Of a stretch of 64,000 nucleotides of DNA, positions 1 to 8,311 are shown in pieces (position 1 is the stretch's first letter; every line of letters begins with the position of its first letter). The notes beneath the pieces were generated by a model. It was not told the DNA's origin. It saw only the letters and a program-made list of their open reading frames with translations, and ran no database searches. Position numbers and translations under genes: made by a program. The DNA is from Alienimonas californiensis. Lineage in GTDB: Bacteria > Planctomycetota > Planctomycetia > Planctomycetales > Planctomycetaceae. The DNA lies in assembly GCF_007743815.1 (NCBI RefSeq), contig NZ_CP036265.1, positions 4,285,823-4,349,822 of the forward strand. Reading direction: 5' to 3'.

Positions 1-2
1 TT

Positions 3-311
3 GAAGAACTGATCGACGCCCTCCAGCAGGAGTTGGAAAAGCTCCAACAGGAAAAGCAGGAGGGCCAGAGTCAGCAGGGCGAACCGATGCAGCCGGGCGA
101 GGAGGCGCTGGTCGACAAGATCTCCGAGCTAAAGATGCTGCGGACGCTCCAGAAGGGCGTGAACCGCCGGACCCGTCTGCTGGGTCTGGAGGTTCCGGCC
201 CCCGGCGACCCGGCGGACGTGGACGTGGTCGCCCGGCTGCGGGAGCTGTCGAAGCGGCAATCGCGGATCGAGTCGGCCACGTACGATCTGGCGGTCGGCA
301 AAACGAACTGA
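3..311 (+). CDS. C-terminal part of a coiled-coil protein (5' end outside window)
   Basis: The reading frame is open from the window edge, so the start codon lies upstream. The visible 102 residues are very rich in Glu, Gln, Lys and Leu (for example ALQQELEKLQQEKQEG), which predicts a coiled coil. A basic stretch follows (ELKMLRTLQKGVNRRTR), then a charged helix ending at a TGA. I recognise the pattern as one recurring in planctomycete hypothetical proteins but cannot name a function. It is the first visible gene of a same-strand series running to 7390, so it may belong to the same operon as the exported and HtrA-like proteins downstream. Coding character is clear; function is unknown. Confidence 0.7.
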   Translation, partial: EELIDALQQELEKLQQEKQEGQSQQGEPMQPGEEALVDKISELKMLRTLQKGVNRRTRLLGLEVPAPGDPADVDVVARLRELSKRQSRIESATYDLAVGKTN

Positions 312-353: not shown

Positions 354-1451
354 GTGCCGATCGCCGAACTGCTGCTGGTCCTCGCCGCCGCTCAGGCCGC
401 CCCGCCGGAGATCGCCCCCTCTGAGGCGGTTCAGACGGAGGCCGCCCCAGCGCCTGACGCCTCCGCCGCGACCTACGCTCCCCCGCCGATGGGGGAGGTG
501 CGGGCGGCGGTGACGGCCTACCTTGATCGCCGGACCGCGCTTCGGGGCGAGCCGTTGCCGAACCGGGAGGAACTTCTCTCCGCCTGGGACGATCTCTCCG
601 ACGCCGCCCCGCCCGCCGAACGGCTGGACCTGCTGGCGGATACGCTGCGGGCCGCGGACCCGGCAATCGAGGATCTGCTCGCGACGCTCGATCCGCTCGG
701 CCCGCCCCCGGAGGAGCGTCCGGACGTGGACTTCGCGATTGATTCTTCGGACCCCTTCGCCCGGGATCACCTGCGACTGCTGGTCGGCCGCACCCTCGCC
801 CGCCTGGGCATGTACGACGACGCCCTCGCGGAGTTGGAGGGGCTCGATCCGGCCCAACTGGTCGACCCCGCCACGGCTCTCTATTACCGGGCGGTGAGCG
901 AACACCAACTGCTGATGCGGGAGGAGGCCCTGTCGACCCTGAGTTCGCTGCTGGAGCGCACCGCCCGCGTGCCGGAGCCGATGACGGCGCTGGCCGGGCT
1001 GATGCGGGGCGAACTGGAGGAGACGGAGCCGGAGTCGCTTCGCGAGGTCGCCGGGATGATGCGGGACGTGGAGCGCCGGCTGGACCTCGGCGACTCCGGC
1101 CCGAAGGTCCGCAAGCGGGAGGACGAGATCATCGCCCGGCTGGACGCGATCATTGAAAAGCTGCAGGCCCAGGCCGGCGGCGGGGGCGGCGGGGGCGGCG
1201 GGGGCGGCGAGGGCGGCGGCGACGCCCCCTCCCCGTCGAATCAGTCCTCCAATCCCGGCAGCGATTCCGTGCTGAAGGGCAGTCAGGCGGCCGGCGACGC
1301 GGACATGAAGCCGGCCGACGGCCCCGGCGGCTGGGGCGATCTGCCCGAGAAGGAGCAGGCCCGCGCCCGCTCGCTTCTGGACCGCGACTACCCCGGCCAC
1401 TACCGCCGCGTCGTCGAAGAATACTTCCGTAAATCTGCCGAGGAGAATTGA
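354..1451 (+). CDS. Exported hypothetical protein with poly-glycine linker
   Basis: The 365-residue protein starts at a GTG 42 bases after the previous stop. Its N-terminus (MPIAELLLVLAAAQAAPPE) looks like a short signal peptide, so export is inferred. Residues 45-255 are mostly helical and acidic and could form TPR-like helical pairs, though I see no clear consensus. Around residues 275-290 there is an almost pure glycine run made of alternating GGC and GGG codons, followed by a Ser/Asn-rich linker. The conserved-looking tail (LPEKEQARARSLLDRDY... then YRRVVEEYFRKSAEEN) resembles the tail of many planctomycete hypotheticals. Its stop overlaps the next start (TGATG), which supports co-translation. 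No enzymatic motif was seen. Confidence 0.8.
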   Translation: MPIAELLLVLAAAQAAPPEIAPSEAVQTEAAPAPDASAATYAPPPMGEVRAAVTAYLDRRTALRGEPLPNREELLSAWDDLSDAAPPAERLDLLADTLRAADPAIEDLLATLDPLGPPPEERPDVDFAIDSSDPFARDHLRLLVGRTLARLGMYDDALAELEGLDPAQLVDPATALYYRAVSEHQLLMREEALSTLSSLLERTARVPEPMTALAGLMRGELEETEPESLREVAGMMRDVERRLDLGDSGPKVRKREDEIIARLDAIIEKLQAQAGGGGGGGGGGGEGGGDAPSPSNQSSNPGSDSVLKGSQAAGDADMKPADGPGGWGDLPEKEQARARSLLDRDYPGHYRRVVEEYFRKSAEEN

Positions 1452-2671
1452 TGAGGCCGCTTCCGATCCTCGCCCCGCTGCTGGTCGCCGTGGCCCTCGC
1501 CCCGGCCGCCGCTCCGACGGCCGCCGCGGCAGTGGAGGCCGAGGTGGAGGCGGCGCTGCTGGACGGCCCGTCGGTGACCGGCGCCCTCATCGGGCTGGCT
1601 GACGAACGGCTGCGGCTGTCGACCGCCGACGGCGAACGCGAGCTGCCGTTCGCCGATCTGGCGGAACTGCGGTTCGCCCCCCCGGAGACCGCCCCGCCGG
1701 CACCGGAGTCCGCGGTGCGGCTCGTCGACGGTAGCACGCTGCCTGTCTCCACTGTCACGCTCTCTGACGGACGGCTGAACGCAGACGTACCGGGGCTGGA
1801 CGCGATGTCGCTGCCGGGGCAGTCAGTGCGGGCGATCCGCTTCCGCCCCCTCGCCGGCGCCGACGCAGAGCGGTGGGAGGAACTGGCGACCTCGAACCCG
1901 GACGGGGACCTCGTGGTGGTGCGACGCGGCGAGCGGCTGGACAAGCTCGACGGCAGCGTCGGCGGCGTGGGGGCGGAGACCGTTTCTTTCCTGCTGAACG
2001 GTTCCGAGGTGCCGCTGCCCCGGGGGCGGGCGAACTTTATCGGCATCGTCTTTGGCCGGGCGGCCGCGGAGTCCAAGCCGACCGCGGTGGTGCGGCCGCA
2101 CGTCGGCGGGGCCCTGCGGGCGTCGAAGCTTGCGCTGACGGACGACGGTTCGCTGGAGATCACGCTGACCGGCGGCGGCACGCTAACCGCCCCGCTGACC
2201 GGGGTGGCCTCGATCGATTTCGCCGCCGGCTCCGTCACCCCGCTGGCGGACCTGCCGACCCGGGCGCCCTCCGAGACCACCGCCGGCTGGGCCGACGAAC
2301 CTTGGCCCGTCGGCCGGAACCGCAATCTGGAGGGGGAACCGATCCGCATCGCCGGCCGCCCCTTCGACCGCGGCCTCACGCTGCACGCCCCGGCCGCCTT
2401 GGAGTGGCGTTTGCCGAAGGACACCGCCCGGCTGCGGGCCGTCGCGGGCATTGAGGACGCCCGCCGGGCCCTCGGCGTCGGCGAGGTCGACCTGACGATC
2501 GCCGGCGACGGCCGGGAGTTGTTCACTCGCCGCCTGACGCATACGGATGACCCGTTGGAACTGGACGTCGACGTCACCGGCGTCCGCGTTCTGACGATCA
2601 CCGTCGGCGTCGGCGACGACCCCTTCGCCGGCGATCACCTCGCCCTCGGGAACGCGCGGCTCACGCAATGA
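1451..2671 (+). CDS. Exported NPCBM/NEW2-domain protein
   Basis: The 406-residue protein starts at the ATG at 1451, which overlaps the preceding stop; a TTG one codon earlier is a less likely start. It has a signal peptide (about residues 1-28, hydrophobic then Ala-rich). A beta-rich middle follows (about 30-270) with repeated short strands such as LRLSTADGERELPFADLAEL. A C-terminal domain from about 285 to the end matches the NPCBM/NEW2 fold by its pattern IRIAGRPFDRGLTLHAPA, a strand-rich core and DDPLELDVDVTGVRVLTI. That domain is a galactose-binding-like module usually found on carbohydrate-active proteins, and glycan binding at the cell surface is inferred. No catalytic domain is visible. 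It is sandwiched in the operon and overlaps the HtrA-like gene by four bases (ATGA). Confidence 0.85.
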   Translation: MRPLPILAPLLVAVALAPAAAPTAAAAVEAEVEAALLDGPSVTGALIGLADERLRLSTADGERELPFADLAELRFAPPETAPPAPESAVRLVDGSTLPVSTVTLSDGRLNADVPGLDAMSLPGQSVRAIRFRPLAGADAERWEELATSNPDGDLVVVRRGERLDKLDGSVGGVGAETVSFLLNGSEVPLPRGRANFIGIVFGRAAAESKPTAVVRPHVGGALRASKLALTDDGSLEITLTGGGTLTAPLTGVASIDFAAGSVTPLADLPTRAPSETTAGWADEPWPVGRNRNLEGEPIRIAGRPFDRGLTLHAPAALEWRLPKDTARLRAVAGIEDARRALGVGEVDLTIAGDGRELFTRRLTHTDDPLELDVDVTGVRVLTITVGVGDDPFAGDHLALGNARLTQ

Positions 2672-4374
2672 CGATGCAGAGGAAGACAGTCCGCGGCGTG
2701 CTCGTCTTCGCGGCGCTCCTGACCTGCCTGGGGTCGCCCCTCGACGCCGCGGAGGCGCCGCTGAAGGTCGATCCGGCCGTGCTGGAGGCTCAGGCGGCCC
2801 GCGTGGCGGTGATCGACAAGGTGGCGCCCTCCGTCGTCGCCATCTTTGGCCCGGACGGCGGCGGGGGCGGCTCGGGCGTGCTGATCTCCGCTGACGGCTA
2901 CGCCGTCACAAACTTCCACGTCACCGACGGGTGCGGCGACGCGATGAAGTGCGGCCTCAACGACGGCCGCATCTACGACGCCGTGATCGTCGGCACCGAC
3001 CCGGTCGGCGACGTGGCCCTCATCAAGCTGCTGGGCCGGGACGACTTCCCGGTTGCGGAGTTCGGCGACAGCGACCTCGTCCGACCCGGCGACTGGTGTC
3101 TGGCGCTGGGCAACCCGTTCCTGCTGGCCAAGTCCGACTTCGCCCCGACCGTCACCTACGGCCTCGTCAGCGGCACGCACCGCTATCAGGAGCCGGCCGG
3201 CACCTTCCTCGAATACACCGACTGCCTGCAGATCGACGCCAGCGTGAACCCCGGCAACTCCGGCGGCCCGCTGTTCGCCGCCGACGGGCCGCAGGCCGGC
3301 AGGCTGATCGGCATCAACGGGCGAATCAGCATCAAGCGGGGCCGCGTGAACAGCGGGGCGGCCTACGCGATCAGCTCGAACCAGGTGAAGTACTTCCTTG
3401 GCCATCTCCGCAGCGGCCGGGCGCTGGATCACGGCACGCTGAACGCCACCGTCCGCACCAACTTCGACGGCGACGTGCTGTTCGACCGCGTGCTGGACGG
3501 CTCCGCGGCTCAAGTCCGCGGGATCAAGGAGGGGGACGAACTGGTCGCCTTCGCCGGGCGGCCCATTCGCAGCGTGAACCAGTTCAAAAACGTGCTGGGA
3601 GTGTATCCGGCCGGCTGGCCGCTGCCGCTGACGGTGCGGCGGGGGACCGAGACGCTGGACTTCCTCGTCCGCACCCGCGGTCTGAACCGACGGACCGACC
3701 TGTTGCAAACGGTCGCCCCCAAGCCGGGGCCGCCGCCGAACGACGTGGTCAAGCCGCTGTTGGAGAAGCGGCCCGGTTACGCGAACGCCCATTTCAACGA
3801 CGTGGAACGGGACCGCGTGCTGGCCTCCCTCGGCGACGACCTCTCCGCCGGCCCCTGGCGGATCACCGGGACGGACGTCGACGGCGTGTCGGCGGAGTTC
3901 ACCCTGGCTGACGGCGGCGTGGGTCTGAAACTGGGGGCGAACCGCTTCCTCCAATCACTGGAGCCGGACGCCGATGTGGCCGACGAACCGCCAAGCACCG
4001 GGGGGCTGCTGTTCGCCCTGCGTCAGTGGCAACTTTTGCGAAGCGGCCAGACGGAGGCGTTCGCCGACCTACATTACGTCGGGACGGAGCCGCTGGACTG
4101 GGACGGGCCGACGGTGGACGTGCTCGCCGCGGAGAACCGCGGGATGACGACGCACTTCTACGTGGCGGTCGGCGCCGACGGGAAGGGGTTCCTGCGGGGC
4201 TTCGACTCCTGGCAGGACAACCGCGGCGCCGCCGTCGAGGTGCGGTTCGACGAGGAGCGGCTGACTGGCCCGCTGCCGATTCCGTCGCGGCTGCGCGTCT
4301 TCGCCGCCGGCCAGCCGTACCGCAACTTCGAGTTCACCGCCGCGACCGTCGCCGATTCGGGAGACGCTGAATGA
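2668..4374 (+). CDS. HtrA/DegP-like trypsin-fold serine protease with PDZ domain (catalytic triad intact)
   Basis: The 568-residue protein has an N-terminal signal peptide (cleavage probably near residue 28, ALDAAEA-type site). The protease domain spans roughly 45-255 with all three catalytic residues in their usual settings: His84 in GYAVTNFHV, Asp115 in DPVGDVALIKL and Ser198 in NPGNSGGPLF. A PDZ domain follows (about 265-350, GDELVAFAGRPIRS). A C-terminal region of about 200 residues is beta-rich, acidic and not recognised; it makes the protein longer than a standard one-PDZ HtrA. It is inferred to act outside the cytoplasmic membrane in protein quality control or regulated proteolysis. 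It is the only member of the three adjacent trypsin-fold genes expected to be active. The start ATG overlaps the NPCBM gene stop. Confidence 0.92.
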   Translation: MTMQRKTVRGVLVFAALLTCLGSPLDAAEAPLKVDPAVLEAQAARVAVIDKVAPSVVAIFGPDGGGGGSGVLISADGYAVTNFHVTDGCGDAMKCGLNDGRIYDAVIVGTDPVGDVALIKLLGRDDFPVAEFGDSDLVRPGDWCLALGNPFLLAKSDFAPTVTYGLVSGTHRYQEPAGTFLEYTDCLQIDASVNPGNSGGPLFAADGPQAGRLIGINGRISIKRGRVNSGAAYAISSNQVKYFLGHLRSGRALDHGTLNATVRTNFDGDVLFDRVLDGSAAQVRGIKEGDELVAFAGRPIRSVNQFKNVLGVYPAGWPLPLTVRRGTETLDFLVRTRGLNRRTDLLQTVAPKPGPPPNDVVKPLLEKRPGYANAHFNDVERDRVLASLGDDLSAGPWRITGTDVDGVSAEFTLADGGVGLKLGANRFLQSLEPDADVADEPPSTGGLLFALRQWQLLRSGQTEAFADLHYVGTEPLDWDGPTVDVLAAENRGMTTHFYVAVGADGKGFLRGFDSWQDNRGAAVEVRFDEERLTGPLPIPSRLRVFAAGQPYRNFEFTAATVADSGDAE

Positions 4375-5450
4375 TCCTCTCCGCCGTGCTGCTGGCCCTG
4401 ATCGCCGTGCAGGAAAACCCGGCTGCGGACGCTCCGGACGCGGCGCCGGCGGCTCCGTCGTCCGCCCGCTCCGTCACCGCGGACACGCTGCCCAAGGTGG
4501 TGAAGATCTTCGGGGCCGGCGGTCTGCGGGGGCTGCCGGCCTACGGCACCGGGTTCCTCATCTCGCCCCGAGGTCATGTGGCGACGGCGTTCAATCACGT
4601 GCTGGACGCGAGCCCGAATATCCTGGTCGTGCTGGACGACGGCCGTCGGCTGACCTGCAAACTGCTCGCCGCCGACCCGGTCAGCGGCCTCGCGGTGTTG
4701 GAGCCGGAGCGGGACGACCTGGACCTGCCATACTTTGACCCGGCCGCGTTCGCCCCCGCCGAGGCCGGCGATCGGGTGCTGGCGTTTTCGAACTCCTATA
4801 AGGTCGCCGGCGGCGACGAACCGGTCGGCGTCCAGCGGGCGGTGATCGGCGCCGTGGCGGAACTGGACGCCCGCCGCGGTCGCAACGCCGCGGGCATTGC
4901 CGGCCCGGTGCTGATTCTGGACGCCCCCACTAATAACCCGGGCTCCGCGGGCGGGCCGGTTGTGGATCGGGCCGGACTGCTGGTCGGGGTGATCGGCCGC
5001 GAATTGAAGAACGATGCGACGAACGTCTTCGTCAACTACGCCCTGCCCGCTGAGGTGATCGGCGCGACGCTCACGGCGATGATGGAGGGGGAATTCGTCG
5101 CCTCCGACGTGGCCCCGCCGGTGTTCTCCGGCGGCCCGCAGCCGGCGGACCTGGGGGCGCTGCTGGTCGCGGACGTGGTCCGGCGGACCCCGGCGTACGT
5201 CGAACTGGTCGAACCCGGCTCCCCCGCCGACGCCGCCGGCCTGCGGCCCGGCGATCTGATCGTGCTGCTGGATGGGGAACTGGTTCCGTCGATCCGCCTG
5301 CTGCGGGCCCGTCTGGCGGCCGTCGAACCCGGGGAACCGGTCGACGTGGTCGTCCGCCGCGACGGCGAACTGCTCCCGCTGACGATCGCCGTGCCGGACG
5401 TGGAGGATCTCCGCGAACCGCCCGCTGAACTTTCACGCCCCCGCCGCTGA
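4371..5450 (+). CDS. HtrA-like PDZ protein, predicted inactive (catalytic Ser and Asp replaced)
   Basis: The 359-residue protein has a signal-like N-terminus, a trypsin-fold domain (about 40-235) and one PDZ domain (about 245-345, PGSPADAAGLRPGDLIVLLD). The fold signatures are kept: GTGFLISPRGHVATAFNHV, with His76 one residue further along than usual, and NNPGSAGGPVVDRAG. In the second, the position of the catalytic Ser in GNSGGP is Ala193 (GSAGGP). The segment normally holding the catalytic Asp reads DPVSGLAVL with no Asp at the expected place. Ser192 is next door but off register. I therefore call it a pseudoprotease; a binding or regulatory role with the active paralogue upstream is an inference. 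It overlaps both neighbours (ATGA and TGATG), so the three proteins are probably made together. Confidence 0.88.
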   Translation: MILSAVLLALIAVQENPAADAPDAAPAAPSSARSVTADTLPKVVKIFGAGGLRGLPAYGTGFLISPRGHVATAFNHVLDASPNILVVLDDGRRLTCKLLAADPVSGLAVLEPERDDLDLPYFDPAAFAPAEAGDRVLAFSNSYKVAGGDEPVGVQRAVIGAVAELDARRGRNAAGIAGPVLILDAPTNNPGSAGGPVVDRAGLLVGVIGRELKNDATNVFVNYALPAEVIGATLTAMMEGEFVASDVAPPVFSGGPQPADLGALLVADVVRRTPAYVELVEPGSPADAAGLRPGDLIVLLDGELVPSIRLLRARLAAVEPGEPVDVVVRRDGELLPLTIAVPDVEDLREPPAELSRPRR

Positions 5451-7390
5451 TGATCGCGTCCCCGTTGCTGGCCGTCCCGCTGTTCGCCGCGCTGGCCTGC
5501 GCCGGGCAGACGGCCAACGCCCTCGTCGCCCAGGAGGAGGCAGCGTTCAAGGCCGTCGCCGCCGCGGTCGGCCCCAGCGTGGTGCGGGTCGAAACCCTTG
5601 GCGGCGTCGACACGGCCGAGGGTCGGCTTTTGGCGAGCGGCCCCTCCACCGGCACCGTCGTGCGGCAGGACGGCCTGATCCTCACCAGCAGCGAGAACCT
5701 CGCCGGCAATCCGACCTCGATCCTGGTCCGGCTGCCCCACGGCGAACGCGTCGCCGCGGAGCGGCTGGGCGAGGACGAAGCCCGCCAACTGACCCTGTTA
5801 CGCGTCGAACTGCCCGACGACAGCGGCGTGACGGCCGCAGTTCCCGCGGAGATCGACGCCCTGCGCGTCGGCGAATGGGCGATCGCCGTCGGGCGGACCT
5901 TCTCCGCGGATGCGGTGAACGTCTCTGTGGGCGTGGTCAGCGCCAAGGACCGCATCCTCGGCCGGGCGGTGCAGACGGACGCCAAAATCAGCCCGGCGAA
6001 TTACGGCGGGCCGCTGGTGGACCTCGCCGGCCGAACGATCGGCATCCTCGCCCCGCTGTCGGCCGAGGGCGGGACCGGTGGGGTAGAATGGTACGACAGC
6101 GGCATCGGCTTCGCGGTGCCGCTGGAGGAGATGCTCCCCGTGCTCGATCGGCTCGCCGCCGGTGACACGTTGCGGCCGGGCAAGCTGGGGGTCACCTTCA
6201 AGAGTTCAAAGATGGACGCCGAACCCGTGGTCGACACGGTCCGGCCGCTCTCCCCCGCGGAGGAGGCCGGCGTGCTGCCGGGCGATCGACTGGTCATGGT
6301 CGCGGGGCGGGCCGTCTCGAGGCCCGACGAGGCGCAGCTGGCGATCGGCCCGCTCTACGCCGGGGACGAGGCCATGTTGGTCGTCGAACGCGACGGGGCG
6401 GAGGTGGAACTCAAGGCGACCCTCGTCGCCGAATTGCCCCCCTGGCGGCCGAGTGACCTCGGCGTGCTCCCCGCCGACCCCCCGGCCGCGTCCGACGAAC
6501 CGGACGCGGAGGCGCTCGCCGGGGTTCGCATCGCACATGTCTTCACCGGTTCGGCGGCCGACGGGGCGCTGGAGGTCGGGGACGTCGTGACCGCCGCCGC
6601 CGGGGAGCCGGTGGAGACGGCGGCCGACCTGCGGCGGATCGTCTCCCGCCGGGCGCCGGGCACGGAGCTTTCCCTCGAACGGGCCGAGGGCGAACCGGTC
6701 ACGGTCGCGTTGGGCGAACCGCCCGCCGCCCCGCCGGAGGAACTGCCGGAGACGATCGACCCGACCGCCGACCCGCTCCCCGCGGATCAGAGCGGCCGGC
6801 TCGATCTGGAGGTGGCGGGTTTCGAGGGGCGGGGCGGTTCGCTGCTCGTTCCGCAGCGGGCGGGGCGGGGCGGGTTTGCGCTGCTCGTCTGCCTGCCGCC
6901 GAACGGGGCGATGACGGCCGACGACCTGTTCGGACGTCTCGGCCCCGCCGCCGAGGAGCATGGCGTGATTTTGATGGTCCCGCGGCCGGAGGGGGCCAGC
7001 GGGTTCCAACCCGGCGATCTGCCGTTCCTCAAGGCGGCGGCGGAGCAGATGCGCGAGCGGTACGCCGTCGAGCCGGTGCGGACGTCGCTGTACGGCCTGG
7101 GCGATCAGGGGGCGACCGTGTGGCGGATCGCGCTGACGACCGACGGCGTCCTCCGCGGGGCCGTGACGGACGCCGCCCCTGCCCAGCTCCCGCAGAACGA
7201 ACCGGACGACGCCGTCGTTCCCCTGCTGGTCGGCGATCCGCCGGAGCAGTCCCGGACGGCGCTGCGGGACGCCGGCTACCCGTTCGCCGTGTTGGACGTC
7301 CCGGCGGAGGACCCGGACGACCCGAACGTGCTCGCCCCGGAGGCGGTCGAGGCGATCATGCGGTGGGTCACGACGCTCGATCGTATCTGA
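5450..7390 (+). CDS. HtrA-like pseudoprotease with two PDZ domains and a degenerate hydrolase-like C-terminus
   Basis: The 646-residue exported protein keeps the trypsin-fold framework (about 30-240) but has lost every catalytic residue. The His position is Glu82 (GLILTSSENL), the Asp position is Gln113 (ARQLTLLRV) and the Ser position is Tyr185 (SPANYGGPLVDLAGR). Two PDZ domains follow (about 245-330 with PAEEAGVLPGDRLVMVAG, and about 350-425 with ALEVGDVVTAAAGEPV). The last 190 residues look like an alpha/beta-hydrolase or esterase fold (LLVCLPPNG, then YGLGDQGATV where a GxSxG elbow would be), again with no obvious nucleophile. A scaffold, chaperone or substrate-presenting role is inferred. 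It is the last gene of the operon; 51 bases separate it from uppP. Confidence 0.88.
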   Translation: MIASPLLAVPLFAALACAGQTANALVAQEEAAFKAVAAAVGPSVVRVETLGGVDTAEGRLLASGPSTGTVVRQDGLILTSSENLAGNPTSILVRLPHGERVAAERLGEDEARQLTLLRVELPDDSGVTAAVPAEIDALRVGEWAIAVGRTFSADAVNVSVGVVSAKDRILGRAVQTDAKISPANYGGPLVDLAGRTIGILAPLSAEGGTGGVEWYDSGIGFAVPLEEMLPVLDRLAAGDTLRPGKLGVTFKSSKMDAEPVVDTVRPLSPAEEAGVLPGDRLVMVAGRAVSRPDEAQLAIGPLYAGDEAMLVVERDGAEVELKATLVAELPPWRPSDLGVLPADPPAASDEPDAEALAGVRIAHVFTGSAADGALEVGDVVTAAAGEPVETAADLRRIVSRRAPGTELSLERAEGEPVTVALGEPPAAPPEELPETIDPTADPLPADQSGRLDLEVAGFEGRGGSLLVPQRAGRGGFALLVCLPPNGAMTADDLFGRLGPAAEEHGVILMVPRPEGASGFQPGDLPFLKAAAEQMRERYAVEPVRTSLYGLGDQGATVWRIALTTDGVLRGAVTDAAPAQLPQNEPDDAVVPLLVGDPPEQSRTALRDAGYPFAVLDVPAEDPDDPNVLAPEAVEAIMRWVTTLDRI

Positions 7391-7441: not shown

Positions 7442-8311
7442 GTGAACGGGTCCATTCTCGCCGAAGCTCCCGCCGTGTCCCCGCTTTCGCAGTACCTCGA
7501 AGCCGTCTCCCTGGGGGCGTTGCAGGGGGTCGCGGAGTTCCTGCCGATCTCCTCCAGCGGCCACCTGTCGCTGGCCCAGGCGGTGTTGGACGAGGCGACC
7601 GGCCGCCAGATCGACCCCGAGGGGAATCGCCTGCTGGTCATCGTGCTCCACGTGGGCACGCTGGGGTCGATCCTGTGGTCCTACCGCCGCGACCTCTGGG
7701 CGACAGCGACCGACGTGCGCTACGTCACCAGCGTCGCCGTGGCGACGGCCCCGCTGGTCGTGGTGGCCCTCACGCCGTTGAAGGACCGGGTGGAGGCGAT
7801 GTTCGCCCAACCGGCGGTCGTCGGCGTGTGCCTGCTGGTCACCGCGGGCTTGCTGTTGGCCGGACAATACCTGGCAGTCCGCCGCTCAGATCCGGCCGAC
7901 GGCGAAGAGGCGTCGCCGTCTTCCCGAGAGGTCACGTTGCCGGTCGCGGCGGTGATCGGTGCCTTTCAGACGCTCGCCCTGCTGCCGGGGATCTCCCGCA
8001 GCGGAAGCACGATCGCCGGCGGCCTGATGAGCGGGCTGAGCCGGGAGGAGGCCGTGCGGTTCAGCCTGATGATCGGCGTCCCCGCGATCGCCGGGGCCGG
8101 GCTGTTGGAGGCGAAATCGGTGCTGGACGCCGGCGTGAGCCTCAACGCCCTGCCGATCGGCCCGCTGGCCGCCGGGGCCGGCACGGCGTTCCTGGTGGGC
8201 GTGGCGGCGATCTCGCTGTTGCGGAAGGCCGTTTCCAACGATCGCCTGCACTGGTTCGCGGCGTATTGCGCGGCAGTGGGCTCCGCGACTCTCGTGTGGC
8301 AGCTGACCTAG
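7442..8311 (+). CDS. uppP: Undecaprenyl-diphosphatase UppP (BacA family)
   Basis: UppP dephosphorylates undecaprenyl pyrophosphate to the monophosphate that carries peptidoglycan and other glycans across the membrane. The 289-residue polytopic protein has both family signatures: SLGALQGVAEFLPISSSGHL (about 23-42, with the conserved Glu and His) and LLPGISRSGSTI in the second half. Length and about eight hydrophobic segments match the family. I use the GTG at 7442; a second GTG about 33 bases downstream would trim an unconserved N-terminus. The TAG stop shares the palindrome CTAG with the stop of the convergent inositol monophosphatase gene, leaving no room for a terminator between them. Confidence 0.96.
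   Translation: MNGSILAEAPAVSPLSQYLEAVSLGALQGVAEFLPISSSGHLSLAQAVLDEATGRQIDPEGNRLLVIVLHVGTLGSILWSYRRDLWATATDVRYVTSVAVATAPLVVVALTPLKDRVEAMFAQPAVVGVCLLVTAGLLLAGQYLAVRRSDPADGEEASPSSREVTLPVAAVIGAFQTLALLPGISRSGSTIAGGLMSGLSREEAVRFSLMIGVPAIAGAGLLEAKSVLDAGVSLNALPIGPLAAGAGTAFLVGVAAISLLRKAVSNDRLHWFAAYCAAVGSATLVWQLT

Follow-up and report, generated by a model that had tools for sequence, protein, structure and literature searches.

Why would a planctomycete keep, beside an HtrA-like serine protease with a complete catalytic triad, two further HtrA-like proteins in which the triad is lost? The question is posed by three consecutive genes, A, B, and C, in a window of 64,000 nucleotides from Alienimonas californiensis (the whole stretch of DNA analysed, positions 4285823-4349822 of contig C1 in a single-contig genome of 5.475 Mb). 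A sequence-only reading had taken them for three ORFs encoding a trypsin fold plus PDZ and had postulated that one protease acts jointly with two non-catalytic partners. The ORF coordinates of that reading are exact (Table 1), and Pfam places Trypsin_2 in all three products (8e-28 in A, 4e-19 in B, and 2e-18 in C); B and C score over the cut-off for PDZ, and the match in A is marginal. A trypsin fold followed by PDZ is supported by Pfam in all three, along with fold matches in A and C and sequence matches in B. Upstream, X overlaps A by 4 bp, and no confident Pfam family was found for Y. A promoter scan of the locus found no promoter and was uninformative. The BacA-type gene that lies 3' of C in the window is also found 3' of C in several relatives (loci L039, L041, L046, L048, L058, L059, L060, and L074).

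Table 1. Genes and domains of the cluster (positions are those of the window unless locus L038 is named)
Feature	Position	Strand	Remarks
W	L038 7699-10266		855 aa; entirely 5' of the window
Z, 3' end	1-311	+	whole protein 623 aa, low-complexity/coiled; start 1560 bp 5' of the window (L038 10263-12134)
Y, conserved cluster member	354-1451	+	weak EccA1-N match, below cut-off
X, NPCBM-domain protein	1448-2671	+	Pfam; conserved, directly 5' of A
A, HtrA-like serine protease	2668-4374	+	568 aa; ORF call
A, C-terminal domain	3850-4374	+	residues ~397-561
B, predicted HtrA pseudoprotease + PDZ	4371-5450	+	359 aa; ORF call
C, predicted HtrA pseudoprotease + two PDZ + esterase-like domain	5450-7390	+	646 aa; ORF call
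C, esterase-like domain	6770-7390	+	residues ~440-646
BacA (undecaprenyl-diphosphatase-type)	7442-8311		3' of C

Gene A encodes the intact member. Its triad had been assigned to His84, Asp115, and Ser198, and the triad columns agree; the residues lie in HVTD, GDVAL, and NPGNSGGP contexts, and His-Asp-Ser is present in 63/63 scorable orthologues from the class of the window's genome. The AlphaFold model (pLDDT 90.5) matches DegP/DegQ, and the protein consists of an N-terminal signal-like helix, the protease domain, one PDZ, and a beta-rich C-terminal domain. Judged by triad and fold, A would count as a catalytic member of the HtrA/S1C family. The additional domains of A and C were sought by profile, since the fold matches listed for the full models are HtrA structures only. 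The C-terminal domain of A is conserved and mostly beta; no Pfam family was found for it, and the profile search gave nothing firm. Weak LolB/DUF4292 similarity of the C-terminus in some orthologues makes this domain possibly LolB-like.

In B, the triad columns hold His76, Gly106 for Asp, and Ala193 for Ser. An intact triad is present in B at 0/63 class loci, and the nucleophile position is Ala in 44 of these and Gly in 13. The sequence-only reading had given B as having Ala for Ser and no Asp. Both hold in the window, and the loss of Ser is general, but the loss of Asp is specific to the genus; outside Alienimonas, B mostly retains His or Tyr plus Asp or Glu. One genome (G280) carries two trios (L098 and L107), one of which has Val at the nucleophile position of C, and in the second trio B has Ser but neither His nor Asp.

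The triad columns of C hold Glu82, Gln113, and Tyr185. The Glu, Gln, and Tyr noticed earlier are thus present, and the Tyr is general, replacing Ser in 76 of 77 C proteins from class loci, but the Glu and Gln are peculiar to the genus, the general pattern being Phe/Met/Tyr. None of the 77 has an intact triad, and none has Gly at the oxyanion position. The His and Asp positions vary across orthologues, and Arg168, Gln175, Asp177, and Asp216 are invariant in the protease domain. The AlphaFold model of C (pLDDT 91.4) also matches DegP/DegQ. An alignment with proteases of known structure had been proposed as a check, and it restores the triad in neither protein: not in B, by sequence alignment with DegP/DegQ, nor in C, by alignments with DegP and by the AlphaFold model matched to DegP/DegQ. 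Judged by these residues, B and C belong to the HtrA fold family without its defining triad and are hence classed as pseudoproteases. At its C-terminal end, C has an alpha/beta-hydrolase domain of esterase-like type (profile match to 3wyd at 1e-16), in which the nucleophile is Ser in only 4 of 31 sequences. By this residue, the domain is a second, predicted dead enzyme within C, with its nucleophile lost; it is mostly absent from the C proteins of other classes. An invariant Trp is seen near the C-terminus of this domain.

These assignments are not peculiar to one genome. Relatives had been proposed as the place to look for the gene order. The order W-Z-Y-X-A-B-C recurs across 76 class loci with the trio at the end of the cluster, and A, B, and C are adjacent in 62 of them (26/40 in the window's own family and 36/36 in other families). 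In the remaining 14 of the 40 own-family loci, C lies apart from A-B. The trio order was found in 14 of 16 further loci from other classes of Planctomycetota, the remaining two being cut by contig edges, so that the order is present both class-wide and elsewhere in the phylum. The triad pattern is unchanged in the other classes and at 80 loci of named genome records; Blastopirellula marina DSM 3645 (L201) is one of the named planctomycetes with the trio. As a control, 15/15 ordinary planctomycete HtrAs, five of them from the window's genome, are intact. The recurrence of the same triad states across class and phylum, together with the intact controls, indicates more than chance.

Co-occurrence gives a similar picture. 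Of the 199 class genomes, 148 carry A, 150 carry B, and 148 carry C. The complete set is present in 147 and none of it in 49; of the three partial genomes, one has A and B without C, one B and C without A, and one B alone. X, with its NPCBM domain, is too generic and was left out of these statistics. In genomes G004 and G090, the three genes lie at three separate sites and all three are retained. The gene overlaps, from which joint function had been argued, are present in the window (4 bp, ATGA, between A and B; 1 bp, TGATG, between B and C) but occur in only 20/62 loci for A-B and 13/62 for B-C, with median gaps of ~43 and ~35 bp. Because the overlaps are not conserved, the argument built on them was rejected. 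A role in defence was also considered and dropped, given the absence of a convincing PADLOC match (the matches are marginal and confined to the trypsin-like region in A and B) and the near-universal single-copy distribution. The top matches listed in a plasmid search are ordinary DegQ-type proteases only. Of the 49 genomes without the trio, 45 belong to one family (f2), all sampled members of which lack A, B, and C. This family is a natural absence that could show the purpose of the trio.

A tree of 94 protease domains places A, B, and C each on one side of a branch (support 100/99, 100/99, and 100/100, respectively), with the ordinary HtrAs as a separate group. A rearranged trio, in the order dead, dead, active, is found in three other families (loci L150-L153; L151 8290-11860, L152 10486-14280). 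The W-Z-Y-X neighbours were not detected at these loci, and at L150 there is one dead copy at the contig start. In the tree, the active member of the rearranged trio groups with A (99/86) and the middle one with C (100/98), and the first groups less firmly with B (95/78). The middle copy has His replaced by Phe and keeps Asp; in L151 it keeps Ser also. From these groupings, one active and two dead lineages appear to be older than the divergence of these planctomycete groups. B and C were probably inactivated by different routes, as B retains His and Asp/Glu in many lineages and the His of C has become Phe. The split between dead and intact domains in the tree was not taken to mean a single inactivation: the losses differ, and degenerate columns could attract each other.

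Two further results bear on what the inactive members do. Between the two Alienimonas genomes, dN/dS of the protease domains is ~0.06 for A, ~0.09 for B, and ~0.14 for C; these values point to strong purifying selection on the dead domains. In addition, A and B form a single ORF in two genomes of different families, both draft assemblies. One fusion (L142) has 1290 codons, with A at 422-742 and B at 983-1288; the other (L147) has 985 codons, with A at 45-357 and B at 669-984. By inspection, no signal-like segment precedes B in either fusion, which speaks against a sequencing error that merged two separately exported proteins. Gene fusion is standard sequence evidence of direct association, and the A-B fusions thus speak for B, at least, being in direct contact with A; no fusion involving C was seen.

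The cluster has a wider neighbourhood. A MoxR-DUF58-BatA-vWA block lies 5' of it on the same strand in 17 of 20 loci sampled. In one representative, Pfam identifies MoxR (AAA_3, 3e-63), DUF58 (5e-48), a BatA/vWA membrane protein (2e-18), and then another vWA. In the window's genome, the closest BatA-type gene is ~28 kb off and on the opposite strand. The block has the same MoxR ATPase, DUF58, BatA, and vWA genes as the MoxR-DUF58-Bat 'aerotolerance' clusters, and in most genomes sampled it is directly 5' of W-Z-Y-X-A-B-C. In the sections of the Leptospira bat study (PMC3557215) used here, no HtrA trio is described with the bat cluster. In many families (loci L125-L134), a squalene-cyclase-repeat protein (c9) and a long conserved protein (c11) are encoded 5' of MoxR, which suggests a larger conserved cluster still.

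How does the trio compare with known systems? Like DegP, DegQ, and DegS (MEROPS S1C), its members have the fold and the domain order, and A has the full triad with the GNSGG loop; C has PDZ1-PDZ2, as does DegP. The differences are that B and C have no triad, that A and C are extended by further C-terminal domains, and that the scores against the Do family (TIGR02037) are far under the cut-off of 416 (191, 99, and 170 bits for A, B, and C). The Arabidopsis thylakoid-lumen proteases Deg5 and Deg8 (PMC3640471) are likewise HtrA paralogues, two in one compartment and one of them without PDZ; unlike the trio, each has a described catalytic triad, and there is no dead partner. The closest known precedent is MamE/MamO of magnetosomes, of which the trio, judged by sequence scores, is not a member. 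The magnetosome island that encodes the active HtrA MamE also encodes MamO, an HtrA-like pseudoprotease; MamE-dependent proteolysis needs MamO but not the triad of MamO (PMC4794232, PLoS Biol 2016). MamO is without the oxyanion-hole Gly193, and a change there blocks the active conformation; furthermore, its protease domain binds transition metals, a second and separate activity (PMC4794232). This pairing of active and inactive HtrAs arose three times independently in magnetotactic bacteria (PMC4794232). The trio loci resemble MamE/MamO in encoding active and inactive HtrAs together, and C resembles MamO in having no oxyanion Gly. However, the trio has three partners rather than two, and its inactive members form lineages of their own, distinct from that of A and of long standing within Planctomycetota. 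The best NCBIfam scores are 108 bits for MamE and 52 for MamO, against a cut-off of 800, and no Pfam match to the TauE-like C-terminal transporter domain of MamO was found in B or C. One paper in the planctomycete literature notes many PDZ proteins in planctomycetes. No published description of the trio was found in the open-access literature searched, and the main text of the Planctopirus limnophila essential-gene paper (PMC10632474) mentions neither HtrA, DegP, nor MoxR.

Taken together, the residues, conservation, co-occurrence, A-B fusion, selection, and gene order favour a joint machine. The joint function proposed at the outset came through both of the checks that could have refuted it (triad and gene order) and is upheld on better grounds than the overlaps, namely the fusions, the near-perfect co-occurrence, and the purifying selection. 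The preferred explanation, with a probability of roughly 0.6, is an HtrA assembly of the envelope, with A as the cutting member and B and C as non-catalytic partners, that acts as a whole with MoxR/Bat. Counting against it are the lack of any fusion with C, the own-family loci in which C stands apart from A-B, the distant BatA-type gene of the window's genome, the unconserved overlaps, and the draft state of both fusion assemblies. A would be the only catalytic subunit of this specialised assembly, and B, itself non-catalytic, a dedicated partner in direct contact with A; C would be a second non-catalytic partner, with its two PDZ and the inactivated esterase-like domain as binding surfaces. 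B and C would probably enter mixed trimers or larger oligomers of the HtrA type together with A, or would dock on these, and would decide when and what A cuts, much as MamE-dependent proteolysis needs MamO. Export to the envelope is predicted from the signal-like N-termini, called by eye and from AlphaFold helices. C may join the complex as well, and the partners would be expected to activate A rather than restrain it; toward substrates, they may act by presenting or by restraining them. The trio may also be coupled to MoxR/Bat, acting alongside the MoxR-DUF58-BatA-vWA and W-Z-Y-X proteins encoded next to it. A bolder version, that this is a heteromeric HtrA machine characteristic of the phylum, in which one subunit is catalytic and two are obligate pseudoproteases, with an inactivated esterase-like arm, and that it is the envelope-side output of MoxR/Bat, is doubtful. 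If it were true, ATP-dependent MoxR/vWA remodelling in the cell would control proteolysis outside the inner membrane.

Other explanations keep A as the protease and assign B and C differently. They could be trypsin-fold/PDZ binders repurposed as holdases, ligand or metal binders, or scaffolds, working in the pathway of A without forming a complex with it. The retention of C in several lineages where it is detached from A-B, the extra domain on C, and the metal binding of the MamO protease domain (PMC4794232) would all fit; however, the fusions argue for contact, for B at least, and the trio order is ancient, so this is held to be unlikely. Quite unlikely is a model in which B and C act as brakes: as inactive subunits, they would dilute or cap A, which would stay latent until their PDZ domains receive a signal. 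Mixed oligomers fit such a brake equally well, and DegS, a PDZ-regulated relative, is among the sequence matches; activation and restraint look alike in sequence, however, and the sole studied precedent, MamO, promotes proteolysis (PMC4794232). It is very improbable that B or C is a non-standard enzyme, whether through a catalytic Tyr in C or residual esterase activity. The near-constant Tyr, the four invariant residues, and the homology of the esterase-like domain to active esterases might suggest one, but the oxyanion Gly is absent throughout, the His and Asp positions vary, and the esterase nucleophile is seldom Ser. Finally, lost catalytic residues could mark B and C as functionless, decaying duplicates or an artefact, a view effectively refuted by purifying selection, phylum-wide retention, co-occurrence, and fixed substitutions.

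The clearest pairing of active and inactive HtrAs that was found described is that of magnetosomes; in the planctomycete trio, the pairing is ancient, general in the phylum, and with two inactive partners. In addition, A and B are naturally fused in places, and the trio is tightly linked to MoxR/Bat, an envelope system whose function is still unproven. It thus offers a paired sequence set for studying how pseudoproteases control proteases, as well as a genetic handle on the role of the MoxR/Bat cluster in planctomycetes. In the collection searched, the closest named relative is Alienimonas chondri, whose C is 73% identical. A public record titled Candidatus Kuenenia stuttgartiensis (L225) contains a C gene typical of the class relatives and is possibly a mislabelled bin.
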